Positions 2,556 through 60,945 of a stretch of DNA of 64,000 nucleotides are shown piece after piece; position 1 is the stretch's first letter, and each line of letters opens with the position of its first letter. The notes beneath the pieces were generated by a model that did no database searches, had not been told where the DNA came from, and saw only the letters and a program-made list of their open reading frames with translations. The stretch is taken from the NCBI GenBank assembly GCA_963575645.1, contig OY754464.1, positions 1,178,001 through 1,242,000 of the forward strand, in the 5' to 3' direction. Position numbers and translations under genes: made by a program. This stretch comes from Xanthostigma xanthostigma. Lineage: Eukaryota; Arthropoda; Insecta; Raphidioptera; Raphidiidae.

Positions 2556-5500
2556 ATGAATCGGAAAGTGTTTTTGTTGCCTATTGCAATGCTCCTAATT
2601 TTTCCAATTACATTTATAATAACGTAAGTTAATCTATTGTTTTAAATTTTATTCAATAAAAACTAGTAATATTAGATTCTGGTGTTAACAAGTGACACTT
2701 CATATTAGTGATGTAACGAATATTCGCATTCACATTAGCGAATGTTCGCAAAACTCATACGTATATGAATATATGAAACAAAAATCATATTTCTTTCTAA
2801 AAAAATCTTTTCTCGATCAATAGAATATCTCGAATGAGCAAAACTGTTTGACTTTTATGTTTGCGATTTCACCTTCGCCGCTTGCTTTGGGAAGATAGGC
2901 CAAAGATAAAAGGCAAACTAGTGTCCGACCGCTCATTCGTAACAGTTCGTTCAATTTCGTCGCTTGTTAGAAACCTTCGGCCTCGGCCAAAACTTCGGCC
3001 CATTTTGGCCGAAGCCGAAGGTGGCCGAAGCCAAAGCTTCGGTCGAACACTACTAAATACATATCCGCTGGATGGCTAAATACACCACAATTAGGTACTC
3101 TTATTTGATCAAAAATCTTTCAAATCGATTTATTGCCAACTATTGTTCCAGGTACACCATAGCAGTGAAGTCAGGTCATGTTCCCGCTGCGTTTCCTTAC
3201 ATTAGTGACACAGGCACCTATCCTCCAGAGAGCTGTATCTTTGGACAGCTCCTGAATATTGGTGCTATGTTGGGTAAGAAAAATTTCCAAATTGGAAAGC
3301 TTTATTGGTCGTCTTACAGTCGCACCGACTAGTTGTAGGTACCACCAATTAAAAAAAAAGCAGGATGGCCTGATCGCTCTGCAAGCTAACACAACCAGCG
3401 TAGCTCGTCTGCGCGATTTAAGTACTAACAGAAAACTGCGACTACTATACGATTCTGTATACCATGACTAGTATAATTATTTGCGGGATGTTGGGATCAT
3501 TGATCTAAAATTGTTGTTAAAAATTGCTAATTTGATGTTTTCTTTTGTTTCTAACCACACTTTTAATAAATATTCTTCATACTAATTTTTTACATTTTCG
3601 TATCCGAACCTGTATCTTGCGATGTCCAGAATTATCTTAATTAACGTTGTTAATTATGCTATTGTTATTTTTTATCCATTATAAACTTTTGATAACAATA
3701 TCTAATTGATCTATTTGTTTCTACCTGATTTTTTTTATTATTAAACAAATGGAAAAACGTCACGTGTGTGATGTGTCCTTGATTATTTAACATTTCAATT
3801 GAAGTGTTCAATATCGCGGATTCTTTCTTTTGAGGCCAAAATTTAACAGCCGGTCTTTGTGGTGAACAGCTAGACCTCGAAAGGAACAAAAAAAACAGTT
3901 TTTTTTTAATCGGTTCAGTCGTGCAATATAAAATAACATGACATCCAGATAAAGTCACAGAAAAAGCGAGTGCATAGAGAGGCTTACAATTATGTTTAGA
4001 TTCCTTTTTTTTAATTAAGTATAAATATAATCGAATGAAGTATGATTTGAAAGAGATCGGGGTTTAATAAATATTTTTTATCAACAATTTTCTTTTTCAT
4101 TTTTTGAAGTATGATTTGAAAGAGATCGGGGTTTAATAAATATTTTTTATCAACAATTTTCTTTTTCATTTTTAAAACATTGTCATTAATACCGTATAGT
4201 AAAAAATAGTTAATACCTTTTAATCATGGGTGATTTTTGACAATTTTTTGGGTGAATTTTGACATTTTTTTGATGAATTTTGACAATTTTTTGGGATGAA
4301 TTTTGACCTTTTTTTTGATTAATTTATAGTATTATTTGTTTCAATTCTGACTTTGACGTTACTAAAAATAAATTGTAAGCTCCAATTTAAAAATTCTTAA
4401 TCCAACAAAATTGGACCCATTTGACTTCAATAAGCCCCAGTCCACGTAGATCCCCCCATGGCTTGACTGTTGTCCATATATTTTAACAACATTTAAATAT
4501 ATTTTTTCCAGCTGTTTTGGTTCTGTACATTCGATACAGACAGATCTATGAATTGTGCATGCACTATTCACTTCCGAATCACCTTTATACAATGAATACA
4601 GCAACATTATGGATTGGATTCCTTATGGCCCTAGGTATAAGTTTGGTTGGTAATTTTCAAGAAACAAGCGTTATGACTGTACATATGATTGGTGCTTTGT
4701 TTGCATTTGGACTTGGGACTGTTTACTTTTTTATTCAGGTTTGTTTACTAACAATACTAAAAACTTACTTTCCCGTGGTTACGAGATAAAGTGATTGATG
4801 CCGCATTTTTTTTTTGTGTGAAACATCTAATGGCGCGTTTGGTTGGGAATAAAACCGTGCAATTAGCACGACACGTTACGTTTGTGTACGTTGGATTAAA
4901 CATGGCTCTAGGTCTAGTTGAAGGCAACGTCTATATAACAGGGCGAAATTTAGTTACTAGTATTTCGTTGGCTGACAGCACGTGACGCTTGCTTTGTGTA
5001 TGCGTCGGATTTTAACTTGGCTTTTGTTAAAGGCGACAGCTAGATGACAGAGCAAAATTTAGTTACAGGGTGACATTTAGTTACAAGGCGATATTTAGTT
5101 ACTAGAATTTCGGTAGTTGGAAGCTACTAGAATTTCGCTTAAAATTATGAAGAGTATCTCAAATCACCGAGAAATGAATGAAATTTTGTCAAGTTAGAAT
5201 CGTGACGTAAGCTACTTTATCTTGTGACCACAAACATATCGGTGAACTTTTAACAAACTAAAAATACTAATTCTCAATAACTAATCTCAAAGTGTGTCAC
5301 TCCCTTTAGCATAGTGGCTGAGCTTTATCTATACTAATGTAGGTATAAAATTCTTTGCATGTGTGTGTTTTTGAACGGATTTAACTTAAAAACTATTTGA
5401 CGATTTTTGATGAAACTTTTTTTGCAATTATTCTTATGATTACAGAAATGTTATAGGTTATGTTTTATTTCACTATTTTATCGCAAAGTTAATTTAATCA

Positions 5501-6634
5501 ATTTTTTGGCAAATACTTCTATACAAGTCTATATAAATAAAAATGTCATTTCTCGTTTGTTCAAAATCGTGAATCTCCGAAAGTTCTTCACCGATTGCTT
5601 TGAAATTTTGACACAACGTTGCGCGTGTTTTTATATACGGGTACCTATTATATAGATCTCACACCTACGACAGGTTAAAACATGCTTTTTTTGAAAACAC
5701 ACGCTGCAGTACTAAATATTATACGCCAATGGGAGCCTCATCTGTTGAACGAAACAGCGCCATCTGTTGAACGTTAAAGCAACACAAGCTATACTAAATA
5801 TTTTACGCCAATGGGTGCTCCATCTGTTGAACGTAACAGCAACACACGCACAACAGAGCCACATCTAGTATTTATTTTGAATGTCAACGAAGTGTATAAT
5901 TATATATTCTTTTAATTTCAGACAATCATTTCGTATTACTTAATACCAAATGTATGCTCAAAGCTAATGTGTCATTGCCGGCTTTTGATAAGTATACTTT
6001 GTGGAGGATTTTTTATTGGCACGTTTGCCTTCGCCGCTATCTCAACAAAATATTTCAAAGGTAATATCTGTTGCCGGGCTTGTAGACCGTGGTCTCCTAT
6101 CTGACGCTTCGTTTTCAACTACGGTAGGCACTATTAAGGGCGAAGTATTCACCTTGGCGGCTCACTGGTGTCTAAAAGCATACGTTTTCTACTCGGTCGT
6201 AGTAGGAAACACGTACTACGGCCGAGCAGAGAACACGTCGAGGATAAAAGAAGGAACAGCACTAGTCATCTACACATTAATCTGTGAGCCACCGAGGAGG
6301 ACACACCGCCTTTGATAATGTCTACACCTCAGTTGTGGACGCAAAGTCGAGTAGAAATACCCGGAAACCAAGAAAATTTAGTAATATAATATTGTTTGTT
6401 AATTTCGCAGGTGAAAGTATAATAAGCGATTGGTCGAGTGATATGGAAGGATTTGGTTACCACTTGGCAAGTACCATCTCTGAATGGTTGATGAGTTTCA
6501 TGTTTTGCATTTATATCGCAACATTTACGAGAGAATTTCAAGACATAAACGTGTCGACTCCAGAAGTTCGGATTCTTGTTGCAAATATAAATATTCAAAT
6601 CAATAATCCAAAAATTGAACCGGGAAGTTCCTGA
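2556..6634 (+). CDS. DRAM-family lysosomal/autophagy membrane protein, five exons
   Basis: Exons are 2556-2623, 3152-3273, 4512-4738, 5922-6060 and 6411-6634. Donors are GTAAGT, GTAAGA, GTTTGT and GTAATA; acceptors are TTCCAG, TTCCAG, TTTCAG and CGCAG. All junction phases agree, giving 259 residues, close to the usual 240-270 of DRAM1/DRAM2. The Frag1/DRAM/Sfk1 family signature is visible: an N-terminal membrane helix, then GHVPAAFPYISDTGTYPPE at residues 31-49, GNFQE at 110-114 and a membrane-embedded VH at 120-121. About six membrane segments are apparent. Family members sit in lysosomal or other endomembranes, and vertebrate DRAM proteins promote autophagy; that role is inferred here from homology. 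The TGA at 6632 falls where family members normally end, yet the frame stays open for 431 codons beyond it (separate entry). Introns 1 and 3 contain transposon copies, and intron 2 holds tandem repeats. Confidence 0.92.
2706..3055. mobile_element. hAT-like non-autonomous element in DRAM intron 1
   Basis: The stretch begins TAGTGATGTAACGAA and ends with the inverted TAGTAGTGTTCGACC, imperfect termini of a type common in insect hAT elements. Near its right end are repeated CTTCGGCC / GGCCGAAG palindromes; a similar CTTCGG-rich remnant occurs at about 22070-22160. No clear 8-bp duplication remains (cttcatat against aatacata). It lies wholly inside intron 1. Confidence 0.5.
4037..4174 (+). repeat. 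Exact 69-bp tandem duplication in DRAM intron 2
   Basis: Two head-to-tail copies of a 69-bp unit beginning GAAGTATGATTTGAAAGAG start at 4037 and 4106, with essentially no differences. The near identity means the duplication is recent or a collapsed polymorphic repeat. Confidence 0.85.
4229..4322 (+). repeat. Short minisatellite in DRAM intron 2
   Basis: About four degenerate 20-25 bp units read TGAATTTTGACA followed by a T-rich tract. They lie in the intron 2 sequence upstream of exon 3. Confidence 0.7.
5328..5868 (+). mobile_element. Helitron-like insertion in DRAM intron 3
   Basis: The segment starts TCTATACTAATG after an A and ends CTAG (5865-5868) before a T, which suits a non-autonomous Helitron. 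A second Helitron-style start, TCTATATAAATAAAAATG, occurs inside at about 5529, so two insertions may be merged. The 3' part carries repeats of GCCATCTGTTGAACGT, the reverse complement of the array at 38574-38890. I see no clear terminal hairpin, so the call is moderate. Confidence 0.5.
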
Positions 6635-7930
6635 TACCCAAATGACTCTCATAGCATAGACATAGATGATACGGCTGATCTCCTTGGCAGTAGTGATTCG
6701 GATAACAGTCTTCAGGAAGAAACAGTTTCGAAAGTGATAAATGAAATTGCGCCAAATGAAAATAATGTGCCATTTGTTTGTGAAAAGCAATTGTTAATAA
6801 ATGAAGAAAGTTTTAATGAAAATTGTGATATTTTAGATAATGAATTATTGAACTTAATTGATAATAAAAATAATTGTGAGGATGGTAATTCGATTGATCT
6901 TAGTGATCCAGTTTCTAGTTTAGAACTATTTAATGACAATTTGTCGATTAAGAACGATTCTATGCTATATTCGTCTTTAAATAGCAGTGAAGAAAGCAAG
7001 TACCTAAAAACCAATGATGACATATGGAAGCAAATGAATCATATTTCATTTGATAGATATGGTTCATCAAGATCCTTGATTTTATATGACGACGCCAGTC
7101 AACAATCTTTTTTGTGTACCAAAGATTATCCTACAGGATGTTCTTTAATACAACAGAATAGAACGGATGACTTTTATTTAAAAAGTCAGCATTTCGAAAG
7201 ATGCCACAATTCGAAAACGACTAGTCATAAAATAAAGAAAAATATGGTTGGTAATTCTGTAGTGAATAATTTTGTTTCGGTTGATTCTAAAGTACGCAAG
7301 CGTAGAATTGTAAAGTCCGTGTTAGCACCCAACAAACTGCGATTGCCCCATTTTACTTTGAAAAAACATAAACAGTGCCTTCTGTATAATAATTATTTTA
7401 AAAAGTATAATATTCATGCTTTTGAAAATTGCAAACTCAATATTTTTTTAAATAAATGGTGTGATAATTATAAAATGTATCGAAAAAAAATATTCGAGCG
7501 TTCAAACAAGGATATAAAGAAATATTTTTTACAAAACGAATTTGAAAATCGCGCAATTAAACAAAATTCGGTTGATGATGATAAAAATTATTTTTCCGAT
7601 AGTGAATTTCAGATTAGTAGAATAAAAAAAAAAGTAAAGCCTAAAAAAACTATAAGACGGATTAATTCCTTCGAACACATGTCGCATTATTGTTCTGATA
7701 ATGAATGCACGTATGATAATGCCTTATTAGATAGTATAAACTCCGCTTTAGAATCTTGTAAAAACACCGACGTTCAGCTACGAACAAAAAGTCATGCAGA
7801 AATTCACAAAAAATACATTTCCTTGTCACTTTCAATACTGTTAGCTGCCTTATTACAAACAATAAGAGTTCTTTCGGAGCTAATAGAAGATACTCTAGGT
7901 CAAGATGCTGAGCAGAAAATCATTTATTAG
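6635..7930 (+). CDS. In-frame 431-codon extension downstream of the DRAM TGA stop
   Basis: Reading continues in the DRAM exon 5 frame directly after TGA 6632-6634 for 431 codons, to TAG 7928-7930 and a second TAG at 7931. The first in-frame ATG is at 6962, after 109 open codons, so an ordinary separate gene start is unlikely. The product begins acidic and serine-rich (IDIDDTADLLGSSDSDNS), then has basic clusters (KVRKRRIVK, IKKKVKPKKTIRR), and ends with a hydrophobic helix near 7820-7880. I recognise no domain. Three readings are possible. First, a long isoform made by readthrough of UGA; the next base is U, not the favoured C. Second, an exon joined by a splice that skips the stop, for example acceptors near 6655, 6687 or 6716. 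Third, the original C-terminus of a 691-residue protein cut by a recent nonsense mutation or base error. Confidence 0.65.
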   Translation, partial: YPNDSHSIDIDDTADLLGSSDSDNSLQEETVSKVINEIAPNENNVPFVCEKQLLINEESFNENCDILDNELLNLIDNKNNCEDGNSIDLSDPVSSLELFNDNLSIKNDSMLYSSLNSSEESKYLKTNDDIWKQMNHISFDRYGSSRSLILYDDASQQSFLCTKDYPTGCSLIQQNRTDDFYLKSQHFERCHNSKTTSHKIKKNMVGNSVVNNFVSVDSKVRKRRIVKSVLAPNKLRLPHFTLKKHKQCLLYNNYFKKYNIHAFENCKLNIFLNKWCDNYKMYRKKIFERSNKDIKKYFLQNEFENRAIKQNSVDDDKNYFSDSEFQISRIKKKVKPKKTIRRINSFEHMSHYCSDNECTYDNALLDSINSALESCKNTDVQLRTKSHAEIHKKYISLSLSILLAALLQTIRVLSELIEDTLGQDAEQKIIY

Positions 7931-8028
7931 TAGTTTCCTTACGGCAGTGTAGTAATTAGGACATAGCAAAATGTAGGCTGTGCCCCAGACACACAAATTC
8001 TAGAGGCAATGCATTTGTTTGACGTCAG

Positions 8029-8320
8029 TAGACATGGGAAAAGTCGTTACTATGTGATCACAGTGACTGTTATTCCAGTTACACAAAAATCACAGTGAAA
8101 AATCACCGTGATTTTGCCACGTCGATCCCGATCGAGCAAACACTCGGGTCGGACGTTTACGTCGGCTACTCGGTTGGAGCGACCGTCGTGAGTGCGGTGA
8201 CATGGAACAGCATACGTTACTTTGGAACGTAGTTAACTGTTGTCAAATCACAGTGATCATTTTAAACGGCTGGTCACAGTGATTTTTTCATCGTGAAGTT
8301 ATTTATTCCCCAACTCAATA
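8029..8320. mobile_element. Short hAT-type MITE with perfect TSD
   Basis: The element is flanked by identical octamers gacgtcag (8021-8028 and 8321-8328). The ends are imperfect inverted repeats (TAGACATGGGAA against the inverted TATTGAGTTGGGGAA). The interior repeats the dyad half TCACAGTGA several times on both strands. It lies about 100 bp downstream of the DRAM extension stop, so it may sit in the 3' UTR. Confidence 0.75.
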
Positions 8321-8380
8321 GACGTCAGTGCAGTTTTCGCTCTTCAACATGCCATCCGCCTCCGCTTGTCTGTGACTCCG

Positions 8381-8600
8381 ACCGTATTTTTCGAACTATA
8401 AAACGCACCTCAAATGTATAAGATGATTTTTAGAAAAATATATTTTACTTTCGGATCGTAATTTTTATTTATTGTTAACATAAATTTCGAGACGATTTAT
8501 TGAAAAAAAAATGTTTTAACCTTACGTTCGGACCACAATACGTACCTATTTGAGTCCATTCTATGTAAAAAGGTGCGTCTTATAGTCCGAAAAATACGGT
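8381..8600. mobile_element. MITE with ACCGTATTTTTCG termini
   Basis: The termini ACCGTATTTTTCGAACTATA and, inverted at the right, ACCGTATTTTTCGGACTATA are nearly identical over about 29 bp, followed by ACGCACCT on both arms. I recognise this terminal type as widespread in animal genomes and probably Tc1/mariner-related. No transposase frame remains. Confidence 0.7.
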
Positions 8601-8624
8601 ACTAATTTTGTTCCTACGCATCTA

Positions 8625-9259
8625 TTAGTATAGGAGGGCTATCAAACATTTTTGGGTAGGTATTTGGGGCACCGTGAAAATTCTTTTGTAATGTCTGAAC
8701 ACGAAATCGAAGACCTGGCTGAAGGATACTGATGTCTACCCAAGCTTTGGATTTTTAACTTTGCGAAATTCTATTAAAATATTCTTGAGACATTTTTAAA
8801 TTTTAATACCTTCTGGCAGACATTTAGACCCGACTAAATAATCTGGCTTATTTATTCTTTATTTGATTAAATATTACATTTGAAGGCAGTACAGGTGACT
8901 TCACTGCCATATTCCAAATTTCAATCTCAAATAAAAAGTCGACTATGCTCTCTTTGTTTATATTCAGTAAATGATTTTAAATATTGATTATTATATTTGC
9001 TTTTGTACTTGACAAGTCATACGAAATGTAATTTTCCTTTTGACAATAAATATTTCTATTTCTATTCTAAAAAAAAAAATCAAAATGCCCTAAGGACATT
9101 TTTACGCAAAGTTAAACATTCAAGGCTTAGCTGGGCCCCACTACCCATTAGCCAGGTCTTAAATTTTGTGTTCAGACATTACAAAATAAGTGTTACAAAA
9201 ATTTTCATTCTGCCCCAAATACCTACCCAAAAATGTTTGTTAGCTCTTAGTCTATAATT
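8625..9259. mobile_element. Inverted-repeat element with about 160-bp arms
   Basis: The sequence around TTTTTGGGTAGGTATTTGGGG at 8652-8672 recurs inverted at about 9215-9237, and the homology continues about 160 bp inwards to ACTTTGCG. One arm is found alone at 44036-44230. This suggests a non-autonomous DNA transposon with long terminal repeats. Neither arm carries a supported gene. Confidence 0.65.
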
Positions 9260-10133
9260 TCCTATTTTAAAAGCCTTCCTAATTATCTGTGTAGTACTTA
9301 CTTCTGTCATATGATTTTATTTATATATTTATTTGAAGTTATAAATTTTTATTTAGATATTTATTCTCATCTATTGTAATGTTATTAACTTGCCAATTGT
9401 GATTTTAATTGTTTTATATATTTAAAATATGTAAAAGTAAGTACATAGAATGTTATAATTTATAGATAGCATTTACATTATTATATTGGTAGTTTCATTA
9501 TTGTTTTATAACTTGATGTTTGTGATATAGAAAATACATATTTTATGATTACTTATGTAAATAGTACCTCACTGCTTTTATTGGATAATAACAAATAAAT
9601 CTTTTTACTGTGCGATCGGCGAAAGAAGACCGATGGGGAAAGGGCAAGAAGTCGCTGATGTGTTCCCAAATTATCGGAATTCATAGGCGGCGCATAGCAA
9701 GGCATGCAAACAATGTATAGCTTTTTAAGGCATTATTTTGAGCCTCTAACTTGCACATTTTAATTACATTCGCTATGACATCCCTAGCACCACTTCTAAC
9801 TGTTTTTCCCTGTTTACTTTCCATTTTGATGATATTCAGACAACACCCCTCAACTTAGTCCCTGGACGCACGCCTATGTACTGTCTGGTGTATGATTTTT
9901 TTGTACTGTTAGCAAGTGTCACTGTATAGTCGTACGGCTATGGCAAGAGTACAATTATCGCGATACCACAATTGTGATACGATTGGTCGACTGGACTCCC
10001 TTATTGCATAGAAGCGGTTCCAGGATCATTAACCTTTTACTAATATAAAATACATGTGCGCTATTCTGCAATAAGGTCATAGGGCTACATTCCATAGACC
10101 GGTCTTCTTTTAAAAATCCTACAGTATTTCCTA
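9260..10133. other. AT-rich stretch without recognisable genes
   Basis: No protein, RNA gene or repeat boundary is supported. An AATAAA lies at about 9593-9598; it could serve a long DRAM 3' UTR, but nothing ties it to that transcript. Confidence 0.4.
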
Positions 10134-10363
10134 CTAGCGGCCCGGTCCGGTTCGCCCGGGTAAGTAGATTGCCTAGTAAAGATAGACATAATCAGATATA
10201 AGTAGTATATATATTTTTTCGCGTAACCACAAAGAAAGCGAAAATCAAAAACAATACAACATTGCTTAAAATAAAATAATTGATAACAATATTATGCTGT
10301 ATCGCGGACTTTCTTATAGAATAACAACCGTATTTGTAAGGCGTTATCATATTTTATTAATAA
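10134..10363 (-). mobile_element. Helitron 3'-terminal fragment, family H2
   Basis: On the - strand the end reads CCGGACCGGGCCGCTAG, then T. The same terminus recurs at 10364, so this is a second, head-to-tail copy whose 5' end is not clear. Confidence 0.5.
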
Positions 10364-10622
10364 CTAGTGGCCCGGTCCGGCTTCGCCCGAATTTGTAAAT
10401 TACCACCGTATTTTCGTCGACTTACGTTGCAAAATTGGTCTCCACGAAAATGACCTTTTATTTTAACACCATAATATTATATAGCCTATGTCCATCCTAA
10501 AGGTCCATTCTAAATATTGGTGGAAAAAAAATAAAATCGGATGAGTAGTTTGGAAGATTATTCTCCGAATATACACAAACTAACAAAATTCGCACTCTGT
10601 CTTTATAATATTAGTATCTAGA
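10364..10622 (-). mobile_element. Complete small Helitron, family H2
   Basis: On the - strand it starts TCTAGATACTAATATTAT after an A and ends GGACCGGGCCACTAG before a T, giving a 259-bp element with proper Helitron ends. A 5' half of the same family lies at about 32340-32522. There is no coding capacity. Confidence 0.7.
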
Positions 10623-11771
10623 TTTGCCAGAACTCTAAATTTTCCTTGCGACTAGAGGTAAATATAATATTTACTTTCTCTGTTTGTTTCCTTTGTAGTT
10701 AAAACGCACATGATACTTTTAATATGTAGTTTTGTAAGCTAACAAAGAGAGAGACATTTGTAACAGTTGACTGGCGACTTCGAACAATTCACTGTGCAGA
10801 TAAAATGTCAGCATAGTGGCTGATGAAATCAAAAGATGAACAAAAAGAGAGGAGAAGAAGAAAGCGATCGAAGTAGATTGCCTTTGGCACAACTAGGTCG
10901 ATTCGGAATGAGTTTAGTAGATTGAAGAGGGTAAAGTTTCCACTTTGATATCAGTTTAACTATAATAGGACTGGCCAATATATCTATTCGCCAAATACAA
11001 ATACTAGCGGTCCGTCCTGGCTTCACCACGATGCAAAACCGTATGACTTATTAATATAGTCTCTTCTTCTTCCCTTCTCTCGAAATAATAATTTATCTCC
11101 CCCCTCACGTGAAATTTACCCTATAATTTTAATGTATATTCCCCGAATTAAAAAGTTGACGTGAGGCTCTTATTGACCCCTCTCCCTTTAAATGAGATTT
11201 TGCCAGATTTTTCCCCTCTCAATTTTGAGCTCCATTAATGGACGTCTCCTTTTGGAACCCCTTCGATGACCGTCCGTCCGTCACGGCCAATTTTCTCTGA
11301 AACTCTTCGACGTAAAGTTGAATTTTGATTCTGGGTATTATCCAATTTTTTACTGATTAATTATTGAAGTAGATTAACGGGGAAAAAATAGTTTCTCCAT
11401 ATTTTTTCGTTTCAAAAAAAAAGAAAATTATAGTAATGGTTGGACAGACCTATCGCAAAGTACAGAACTCGTGAGATGAAGTGTGTCTTTGAGAAATGAT
11501 GGAGTATGTTCCCTTAAAAAGGTACCACTTGATGTTGCTATATTATGTAGGTTTAACTGAAAGCTATTTGCGCTGTGTAAAAGTCAAGATAGACCTTTTG
11601 TTGTGTGTTAGATTTGGTATGATACATAATACTTATACATAATACAGGACAAGAGCAGATGAGGAATTCAGGGTAGGTATTTTTGGAACGCCAAATTTTT
11701 TACAGCAACGATAGATTGAAAATTATAGACGCTAAACAATGGAGGTCACCATCGTCTATATAATAAAACTA
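10623..11771. other. Repeat debris, no gene
   Basis: A short Helitron 3' end (CTAGCGGTCCGTCC) sits at about 11004-11030 on the - strand. The rest is AT-rich, with pyrimidine-rich tracts around 11050-11290, and shows no supported gene. Confidence 0.4.
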
Positions 11772-12265
11772 CAGTATAACCTCTTTATAAAGAATCTCAA
11801 GGGACCGAGCATTTTTTTCGTTATAAAGAGTTTTCGTTATATGAAGGGAAGAAAGAAAAATAACCAAATTTCACCTAATTAATTTATTCCAAACACATAT
11901 AGTCTGTTAGCTTTGCCTGACGTTTTTTGCTATGCCAATATTTGTTTTGAATTTTATTGTCTTTATTTTATGTCTTGGGATGTGATGAAATCATCTCCAT
12001 TAAACAATAGGAATTTTTCGATAAGTTTAGCGGCATCAAGTGCTTGTTGAATAGATGGTAATGGTTCAGAATCGTCCTCTTTACGTCTGTAAATATTTGC
12101 TGACTTCTAAATATGAACACATTTATTCGTAATAGAGAATGGCTATTGCGCTATAAAGAGGGTATTAATGTATGGGTTTTAAGGTAAATCAACCAAATTG
12201 TAAAAATTTCTACGTTATAAGGAGTTTTTCGTTATAACGAAGGACGTTATAAAGAGGTTACACTG
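11772..12265 (-). mobile_element. Internally deleted pogo-like (Tc1/mariner superfamily) element
   Basis: The ends CAGTATAACCTCTTTATAA and, inverted, CAGTGTAACCTCTTTATAA are flanked by TA on both sides (11770-11771 and 12266-12267), the Tc1/mariner duplication. Extra TCGTTATAA repeats lie inside each end. The 494-bp copy keeps only the end of a transposase frame (11963-12103). Confidence 0.8.
11963..12103 (-). pseudogene. C-terminal remnant of a pogo/Tigger-like transposase
   Basis: The - strand is open for 46 codons ending at TAA 11963-11965. The peptide includes EDDSEPLPSIQQALDAAKL followed by IEKFLLFNGDD, the acidic-then-helical tail style seen at the C-terminus of pogo/Tigger (CENP-B-like) transposases. 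Upstream the frame is closed by a stop, and the DNA-binding and DDE domains are missing. This is a dead fragment, and it identifies the surrounding element. Family placement rests on the style of the tail plus the terminal repeats. Confidence 0.6.
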
Positions 12266-12597
12266 TATATCAAAACAAAAGCAAAAGAAAACAGTAAATA
12301 AAATTCAATAGAATCAAAAATATTAATAAACAAAAAAGTGTAAAAAAATGAAAAATATACCAGTCTAAACCAGTTTCGCTCAAAAAGCGAAACAGCAGAT
12401 CGACGTTACGAGGATCATTTCTTAAAACCATCAATAGATCACCTGACAATCGGGTTTGCTGTCGTGTGAAACATTCAATTAGAGCGTGTGGGAAGGTGTC
12501 ACACGTCTTACAAAAGGACGGTTACTCACGTGTCATCAAAAATTCGTAGCTTTTAGGGTGAAAAATTGACCTAGACTGTTGGGTACAGGACATTTAC

Positions 12598-60122: not shown

Positions 60123-60389
60123 ACTTTTAAAATCCCCGTTATGTGTCCTTAAAGCAATAATATTTATGTAATACAGCATTCTTCTTGTTGATAGTGAATC
60201 GTGTGTACTTAGTAAGATTGCCTTCATGGGCGAGGTACGTACATTACTATTGTTGTGGCATTGTTCTCATTGTTGTACCCATCTGAGATGTATCGCTCGC
60301 TCAACATCATTCTAGAATCTAAGAACCAAGACAAAACCTGAGGTGGCTTCGGGCTACCAGAGGAACGGTCGTTCTGTACAATGCATTTA

Positions 60390-60945
60390 TTTGTTTCACA
60401 AACAGTGCTTCGAATGGCATACTTCTCATTATTTCACTCTAAAATGATTTATGGTATCGAATTGTGGGGTAATGCCGCCTCTGCTTCGAAAGTGTTTTTG
60501 CAACAAAAGAAAGTTATAAGATTGATCTCGGATGCTGGGTTTAGACAGGAATGCAGGCCATTATTTAAGCGATTAAATATTTTGTCATTGCCATGTCAAT
60601 ATATATACAGCTGTTTAATTATTGTTAAAAATAATATGAACAATTTCAATAATCATACTGTGTTGCATAATCATGATACTAGGAAAAAGTTAAATCTTTG
60701 CCTACCATTACACAAATATGCTAAGACTACATACGGACCAAATTTCTATGGTGTAAAATTTTTTAATAAATTGCCATTGGAAATAAGAACTTTAGAAACA
60801 AAATATTTTAAAAGAAATGTGAAAAAATTGTTATTAGAAAATTGTTTCTATAGCATAAAGGAATTCCTTGACTGTCAGAATGTACATTAATTATGTAGAA
60901 ATGACAATAAATTATTACTATGTATGTACCTTGGTTAGATCACTG
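60390..60945 (+). pseudogene. 5'-truncated non-LTR retrotransposon (jockey/CR1-like), reverse transcriptase C-terminus
   Basis: A frame ending at 60890 reads RMAYFSLFHSKMIYGIELWG, then VFLQQKKVIRLI, CRPLFKRLNILSLPCQYIY and FFNKLPLEIR. This is the characteristic region after the polymerase palm of jockey/CR1-type LINEs (YxxLFHSxxxYGIxLWG, LQKKxIRxI, CRPLFxxLxILxLP, FNxLPxEIR). Upstream of about 60390 the homology stops, the usual 5' truncation of LINE insertions. The frame is intact to its natural stop and is followed by an A/T-rich tail, so the copy is fairly young. Confidence 0.85.

Follow-up and report, generated by a model that had tools for sequence, protein, structure and literature searches.

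The window, meaning the whole stretch of 64,000 nucleotides that was analysed, carries on its forward strand a DRAM/Frag1 gene of five exons (2556-6634) whose product has 259 residues. Six combinations of GT-AG sites near the exon edges stay open as far as the terminal TGA, and the exon set chosen is the one in which every donor and acceptor scores above the nearby alternatives. The reading frame then continues past the stop codon. The features of the gene, and of the region that follows its TGA, are listed here with the evidence for each.

2556-2623, + strand: DRAM exon 1, with the start ATG at 2556 (splice-open combination, Pfam, site scores)
3152-3273, + strand: DRAM exon 2 (splice-open combination, site scores)
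4512-4738, + strand: DRAM exon 3 (splice-open combination, site scores)
5922-6060, + strand: DRAM exon 4 (splice-open combination, site scores)
6411-6634, + strand: DRAM exon 5, to the first stop (splice-open combination, Pfam, site scores)
6632-6634, + strand: in-frame TGA, next base T, in the context TCC TGA TAC CCA (sequence)
6635-7927, + strand: open, coding-like extension of 431 codons in the DRAM frame (open reading frame, period-3, shuffles, frame models)
6635-6994, + strand: acidic part of the extension, residues 1-120, with 28 D/E against 4 K/R (composition)
6796-6801, + strand: AATAAA, 162 bases 3' of the TGA, with another at 6863-6868 (position alone)
7325-7684, + strand: basic part of the extension, residues 231-350, with 29 K/R against 12 D/E; it holds a sub-threshold SWIRM match (composition, Pfam)
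7817-7873, + strand: most hydrophobic 19-mer of the extension, residues 395-413 (hydrophobicity; helical in a low-confidence model)
7928-7933, + strand: double TAG (TAGTAG) that closes the extension (sequence)

A Pfam profile search matches DRAM residues 6-231 to Frag1/DRAM/Sfk1 (PF10277) with an E-value of 9.1e-47. The match scores 159.9 bits, well past the gathering score of 30.3, and it is complete: the residues before the TGA cover the profile from position 3 to its end at 220, stopping 28 residues short of the stop codon. A search of the PDB with the DRAM sequence returned no relative at E-values up to 1. The body of DRAM family proteins consists of six helices, and the gene family is linked to autophagy. 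The profile has nothing that corresponds to the 431-residue tail present here, and we know of no DRAM protein, DRAM1 and DRAM2 included, with a long tail of this kind. An earlier reading of the locus, made from the sequence only, had called the extension unlike any DRAM protein; that description agrees with a family profile that ends before the TGA, the comparison being with the profile alone.

Intron 2 of the gene contains a 69-base unit present twice in tandem at 4036-4173, the two copies being 100% alike, and farther along, at 4227-4300, a 22-base unit occurs in 3.4 copies. Intron 4 (6061-6410) lies in a stretch richer in G+C (0.436 in 6001-6500), is partly palindromic by eye, and may be a small mobile element.

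The frame is open for all 431 codons between the TGA and the double TAG, as the sequence-only reading had reported. Its judgement that chance is not a credible cause also holds, with stops expected about once per 12 codons by shuffles instead of the 14 it had estimated. Dinucleotide shuffles of 6635-7930 contain 35.3 in-frame stops on average, and the lowest of 500 contains 22, against an observed count of 0. The longest open run in any forward frame among 2000 shuffles of the same region is 151 codons, and the longest in any of six frames among 100 shuffles of the whole window is 217. A listing of stop-free frames in the window, with a minimum of 120 codons and without those cut off by the window ends, has nine entries; the extension is the longest, and the runner-up has 182 codons. 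It was also correctly noted that the first 109 codons of the extension contain no ATG. An ATG first occurs at codon 110 and has T at -3, so that an ordinary downstream start leaves those 109 codons unexplained.

Comparing codon periodicity on the two sides of the TGA had been suggested as a check, and the signal is found on both. Period-3 power is 4.8 in the DRAM exons, 10.8 in the extension and 8.1 in its ATG-less first 109 codons, against background maxima of 3.4 in 281 windows of 1296 nt and 3.4 in 579 windows of 327 nt. Among 400-base windows taken in steps of 50, the strongest (8.1) is 6551-6950, which runs across the TGA, and the second strongest (5.1) is 7351-7750, within the extension too. 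Because of the period-3 power, the stop counts in shuffles and the peak window that straddles the TGA, the extension seems to be coding sequence in the DRAM frame, and coding seems to start at the TGA or no more than about 25 bases 3' of it.

Position models give a finer view of this boundary. Across 6533-6982, covered by 14 overlapping windows of 20 codons, a model trained on codons 110-431 assigns the DRAM frame 0.85-1.0 every time, both TGA-holding windows included; it drops below 0.5 in 8 of the 41 extension windows from 6653 on, the hydrophobic end included, and in three of the first four windows of exon 5. With the DRAM exons as training set, the frame receives only 0.20 and 0.15 in the two TGA-holding windows, and 28 of those 41 extension windows stay below 0.5. 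Over the 56 bases directly 3' of the TGA, the DRAM frame is preferred to the other two at 0.989. When the model is trained on 6692-7930, bases 6659-6690 are in frame at 0.97, and the first nine codons (6635-6661) are undecided between frames, at 0.63. The same 56 bases stand only 1.3 bits above background composition, which 10.7% of 5000 random stretches reach, and drop to -2.3 bits when only the acidic part is used for training. G+C at third codon positions falls from 0.355 in DRAM to 0.262 in the extension. This difference in make-up across the TGA is a point for a separate origin of the extension; a fast-evolving polar tail beside a membrane protein would be expected to differ in make-up too.

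The two AATAAA hexamers within the extension are possible early poly(A) signals, from which a short DRAM mRNA could arise. AATAAA is commoner across the window than in shuffles.

The sequence-only reading described the extension as acidic, then basic, then hydrophobic, and this order is right. Net charge is -9, -7 and -8 in residues 1-40, 41-80 and 81-120 and lies between +2 and +9 per 40-residue block in residues 161-360, with the hydrophobic 19-mer beyond. Acidic dileucine motifs act in the sorting of membrane proteins; DRAM has no match before the stop and the tail has three, the first being DTADLL at residues 12-17. A dileucine match in the first 20 residues is found in 3.6% of 5000 shuffled tails, this being one of several motifs looked for. 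Residues 258-314 resemble SWIRM (PF04433) at 15.3 and 18.0 bits, which misses the gathering score of 28.6 (E 0.024 for the whole extension, 0.0035 for a 130-residue part). No known domain was accepted in the extension, where all matches were sub-threshold and were treated as chance, with SWIRM kept as a lead. Those set aside were the Pfam matches Il2rg (E 0.03) and MitMem_reg (E 0.046) on other parts of the extension, a PHROGs match (E 0.083), and the best PDB matches, at E 1.1 for the whole extension and 0.41 for a part. An Rfam match to SNORD113 at 7007-7067 on the + strand, also inside the extension, scores 30.1 bits where the gathering score is 36, with an E-value of 0.0068, and is probably chance.

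Nuclear signals were sought in the extension by pattern. The first basic-cluster pattern matched nothing, and a bipartite pattern was not found; K[KR]x[KR] matched twice, as often as in 348 of 2000 shuffles, and a run of four basic residues occurs once, as in 222 of 2000. These patterns are not clearly commoner than in shuffles and give no evidence of a nuclear signal. A single-sequence structure model of the extension has a mean pLDDT of 37.9 and a pTM of 0.20 and is not usable. The predicted features of the tail may serve as a lead; they do not amount to a function. For comparison, a section of PMC3840789 headed 'functional' lists ten fly readthrough tails with predicted nuclear signals, and long fly readthrough extensions are described in PMC4999894 as tending to disorder, with no Pfam entity.

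To account for the open frame, the sequence-only reading had proposed three origins: an isoform made by readthrough, splicing that skips the stop, or a fresh nonsense allele of a 691-residue protein. Such splicing is disfavoured, since the sites that would bypass the TGA score poorly. Exon 5 has 13 GT sites ahead of the TGA, the best of which scores -2.0, where the four real donors score 2.1 to 3.9, and the best in-frame total for a TGA-skipping intron, with acceptors up to 7300, is -0.7; the scores are for the DNA sequence and come from rough matrices of the insect consensus.

Translational readthrough of the UGA at 6632 is the best reading of the locus, and we give it about an even chance. 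The DRAM mRNA would carry the extension in its last exon. The majority of ribosomes would halt at the UGA and release the 259-residue DRAM; for a minority, a near-cognate tRNA would add an amino acid there, as in other insect readthrough genes, and passage over the UGA would lead through 431 further codons to a 691-residue DRAM with a long tail. That tail would probably lie on the cytosolic side of the membrane, and its acidic and basic parts and hydrophobic end could change the location of DRAM or its binding partners. A more elaborate version, in which readthrough turns DRAM into a membrane-tethered regulator by translational control alone, equipped with the DTADLL sorting signal directly behind the stop, one acidic region, stretches of basic residues and, releasable under stress, a chromatin module resembling SWIRM, is very improbable.

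Figures from two sources make readthrough the prior favourite in insects: FlyBase has 328 annotated readthrough genes, with UGA the commonest stop (PMC4528330), and more than 600 readthrough stops are estimated per fly or mosquito genome, against an estimate of 17 recent nonsense changes in D. melanogaster (PMC5100048). Readthrough is reported as abundant in most insects tested, T. castaneum and A. mellifera being exceptions (PMC5100048), and the FlyBase extensions range from four to more than 1000 residues, most of them 8-300 (PMC4528330). The context of the stop is mixed. The base enriched after readthrough stops is C (PMC5100048), and here the stop is UGA, as favoured, with T as the next base instead of C. 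Among the readthrough events that ribosome profiling detects in flies, UGA accounts for only 25% (PMC3840789). RNA folding round and after the stop found no stem-loop; the sequence is less structured than shuffles in five of five folds (z +1.83 to +2.63), with z at +2.32 for the 60 nt and +1.85 for the 80 nt after the stop. A stem-loop within 60-80 nt 3' of the stop is present in part of the known readthrough genes. The missing C and the missing stem-loop count against readthrough. In drifter, according to a 2026 study, readthrough follows stem-loop stability (PMC13170385).

The customary proof of readthrough is a conserved stop codon. Searches for relatives of the extension and of DRAM gave 10 and 74 pattern matches in viral contigs and 36 and 132 in prokaryote contigs, with none confirmed in either set, where insects are not expected. 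Among the literature matches listed, judged by titles and abstract openings, there is no readthrough of a DRAM gene, and a literature search for readthrough together with CG4025, which we take to be the fly DRAM gene, found no paper. The sequence-only reading had pointed to lepidopteran orthologues of DRAM for comparison; the matches listed likewise include no worked readthrough example in Lepidoptera, and in the text of PMC5100048 the words Lepidoptera and Bombyx have 0 occurrences each.

The first alternative to readthrough is that the gene normally encodes a long-tailed DRAM and that the TGA is either a recent nonsense substitution or a wrong base in the assembled sequence, the extension being intact because too little time has passed for decay. 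We consider this unlikely. A readthrough isoform is compatible with the frame and the coding signal, and the DNA by itself fits a recent nonsense change equally, so that the proposal of a fresh nonsense allele stands as well; a nonsense change less than roughly a million generations old would leave identical DNA. The neutral half-life of the open frame was calculated as about 1.5 million generations, using an assumed rate of 2.9e-9 mutations per site per generation, an assumed 10% of indels, and 215 stop-making substitutions among 3879. What the open frame shows is therefore translation, past or present, and not readthrough today. A stop that lacks both the favoured C and a stem-loop also suits a nonsense change. 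Such a change, however, requires an ancestral DRAM with a 431-residue tail, of which we know no instance in any DRAM, and the Frag1 match is already complete when it ends short of the TGA. Nonsense changes are, moreover, few beside readthrough stops (PMC5100048).

Less probable again is that the extension serves as the last exon of a different transcript, from a gene of its own or from DRAM with exons skipped, and that its acceptor lies just 3' of the TGA, so that the TGA is never in frame. AG sites do lie close behind the TGA, at 6655, 6660 and 6691, and the last of these scores 2.4, at the 95.6th percentile of AGs in the window, and has by exon-length arithmetic the same phase as the end of DRAM exon 1. 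The drop in third-position G+C and the bad fit of the DRAM-trained model to the extension are in keeping with a separate exon, and the faint SWIRM match would be better suited to a nuclear protein than to a DRAM tail. On the other hand, the coding signal is in frame already 5' of 6691 (at 6659-6690), while the acceptors at 6655 and 6660 are poor, at the 74.8th and 77.3rd percentiles where the four real ones reach 98.3-99.8. Among the 40 AGs in 6636-7300, about two would be expected by chance at the score of 6691, and a separate exon would share the frame of DRAM by coincidence in one case out of three. An unsystematic look found no upstream exon for it. We regard a separate gene or exon as weakened, and as a weaker explanation than readthrough. 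Improbable in the extreme is a stop altered in the RNA or specially decoded, by A-to-I editing of UGA to UGG or by selenocysteine. UGA is a stop that both could use. Selenocysteine was rejected, as no SECIS is among the three Rfam matches in 6300-12500 at E up to 5, and a local editing duplex is disfavoured because the RNA near the stop is folded less well than shuffled sequence. Lepidoptera, to our knowledge, have no selenoproteins. They are recorded with SPS1-Arg, and insects without selenoproteins have lost SPS2 (PMC4561486).

Readthrough, the preferred reading, would place this gene beside kelch, headcase and drifter (dfr), in which an open reading frame, a stop and a coding-like in-frame extension follow one another in the same way. 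The FlyBase readthrough set is similar in that its stops are mostly UGA and its extensions reach more than 1000 residues (PMC4528330). The locus differs from the insect readthrough genes in having T after the stop and no predicted stem-loop, and in being known from DNA alone; dfr, a UAG case, depends on a stem-loop (PMC13170385), and none is predicted here. SPS1-UGA of Hymenoptera likewise has an insect in-frame UGA, thought to be read through without a SECIS, but that UGA is conserved, with GGG-UG[C/U] as the next bases, and belongs to an element predicted to be structured (PMC4561486). The UGA in DRAM is followed instead by TACCCA, with no stable structure predicted. If the UGA is conserved, the locus would be a case of readthrough whose extension exceeds in length the protein ahead of it, in a family linked to autophagy; if it is a young nonsense change, it would be a clear example of a gene that has lost the greater part of its length.

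Two further observations concern other parts of the window. A 182-codon open frame at 60342-60890 resembled the end of a non-LTR reverse transcriptase, with no Pfam match up to E 0.1. Just 3' of the extension, 8635-9247 contains inverted repeats, with arms 8635-8685/9197-9247 (88%) and 8674-8768/9102-9196 (78%), that enclose AATAAATATTTCTATTTCTATTCT as well as 11 consecutive A at 9069-9079; the arrangement resembles a foldback element enclosing the tail of a retroelement.
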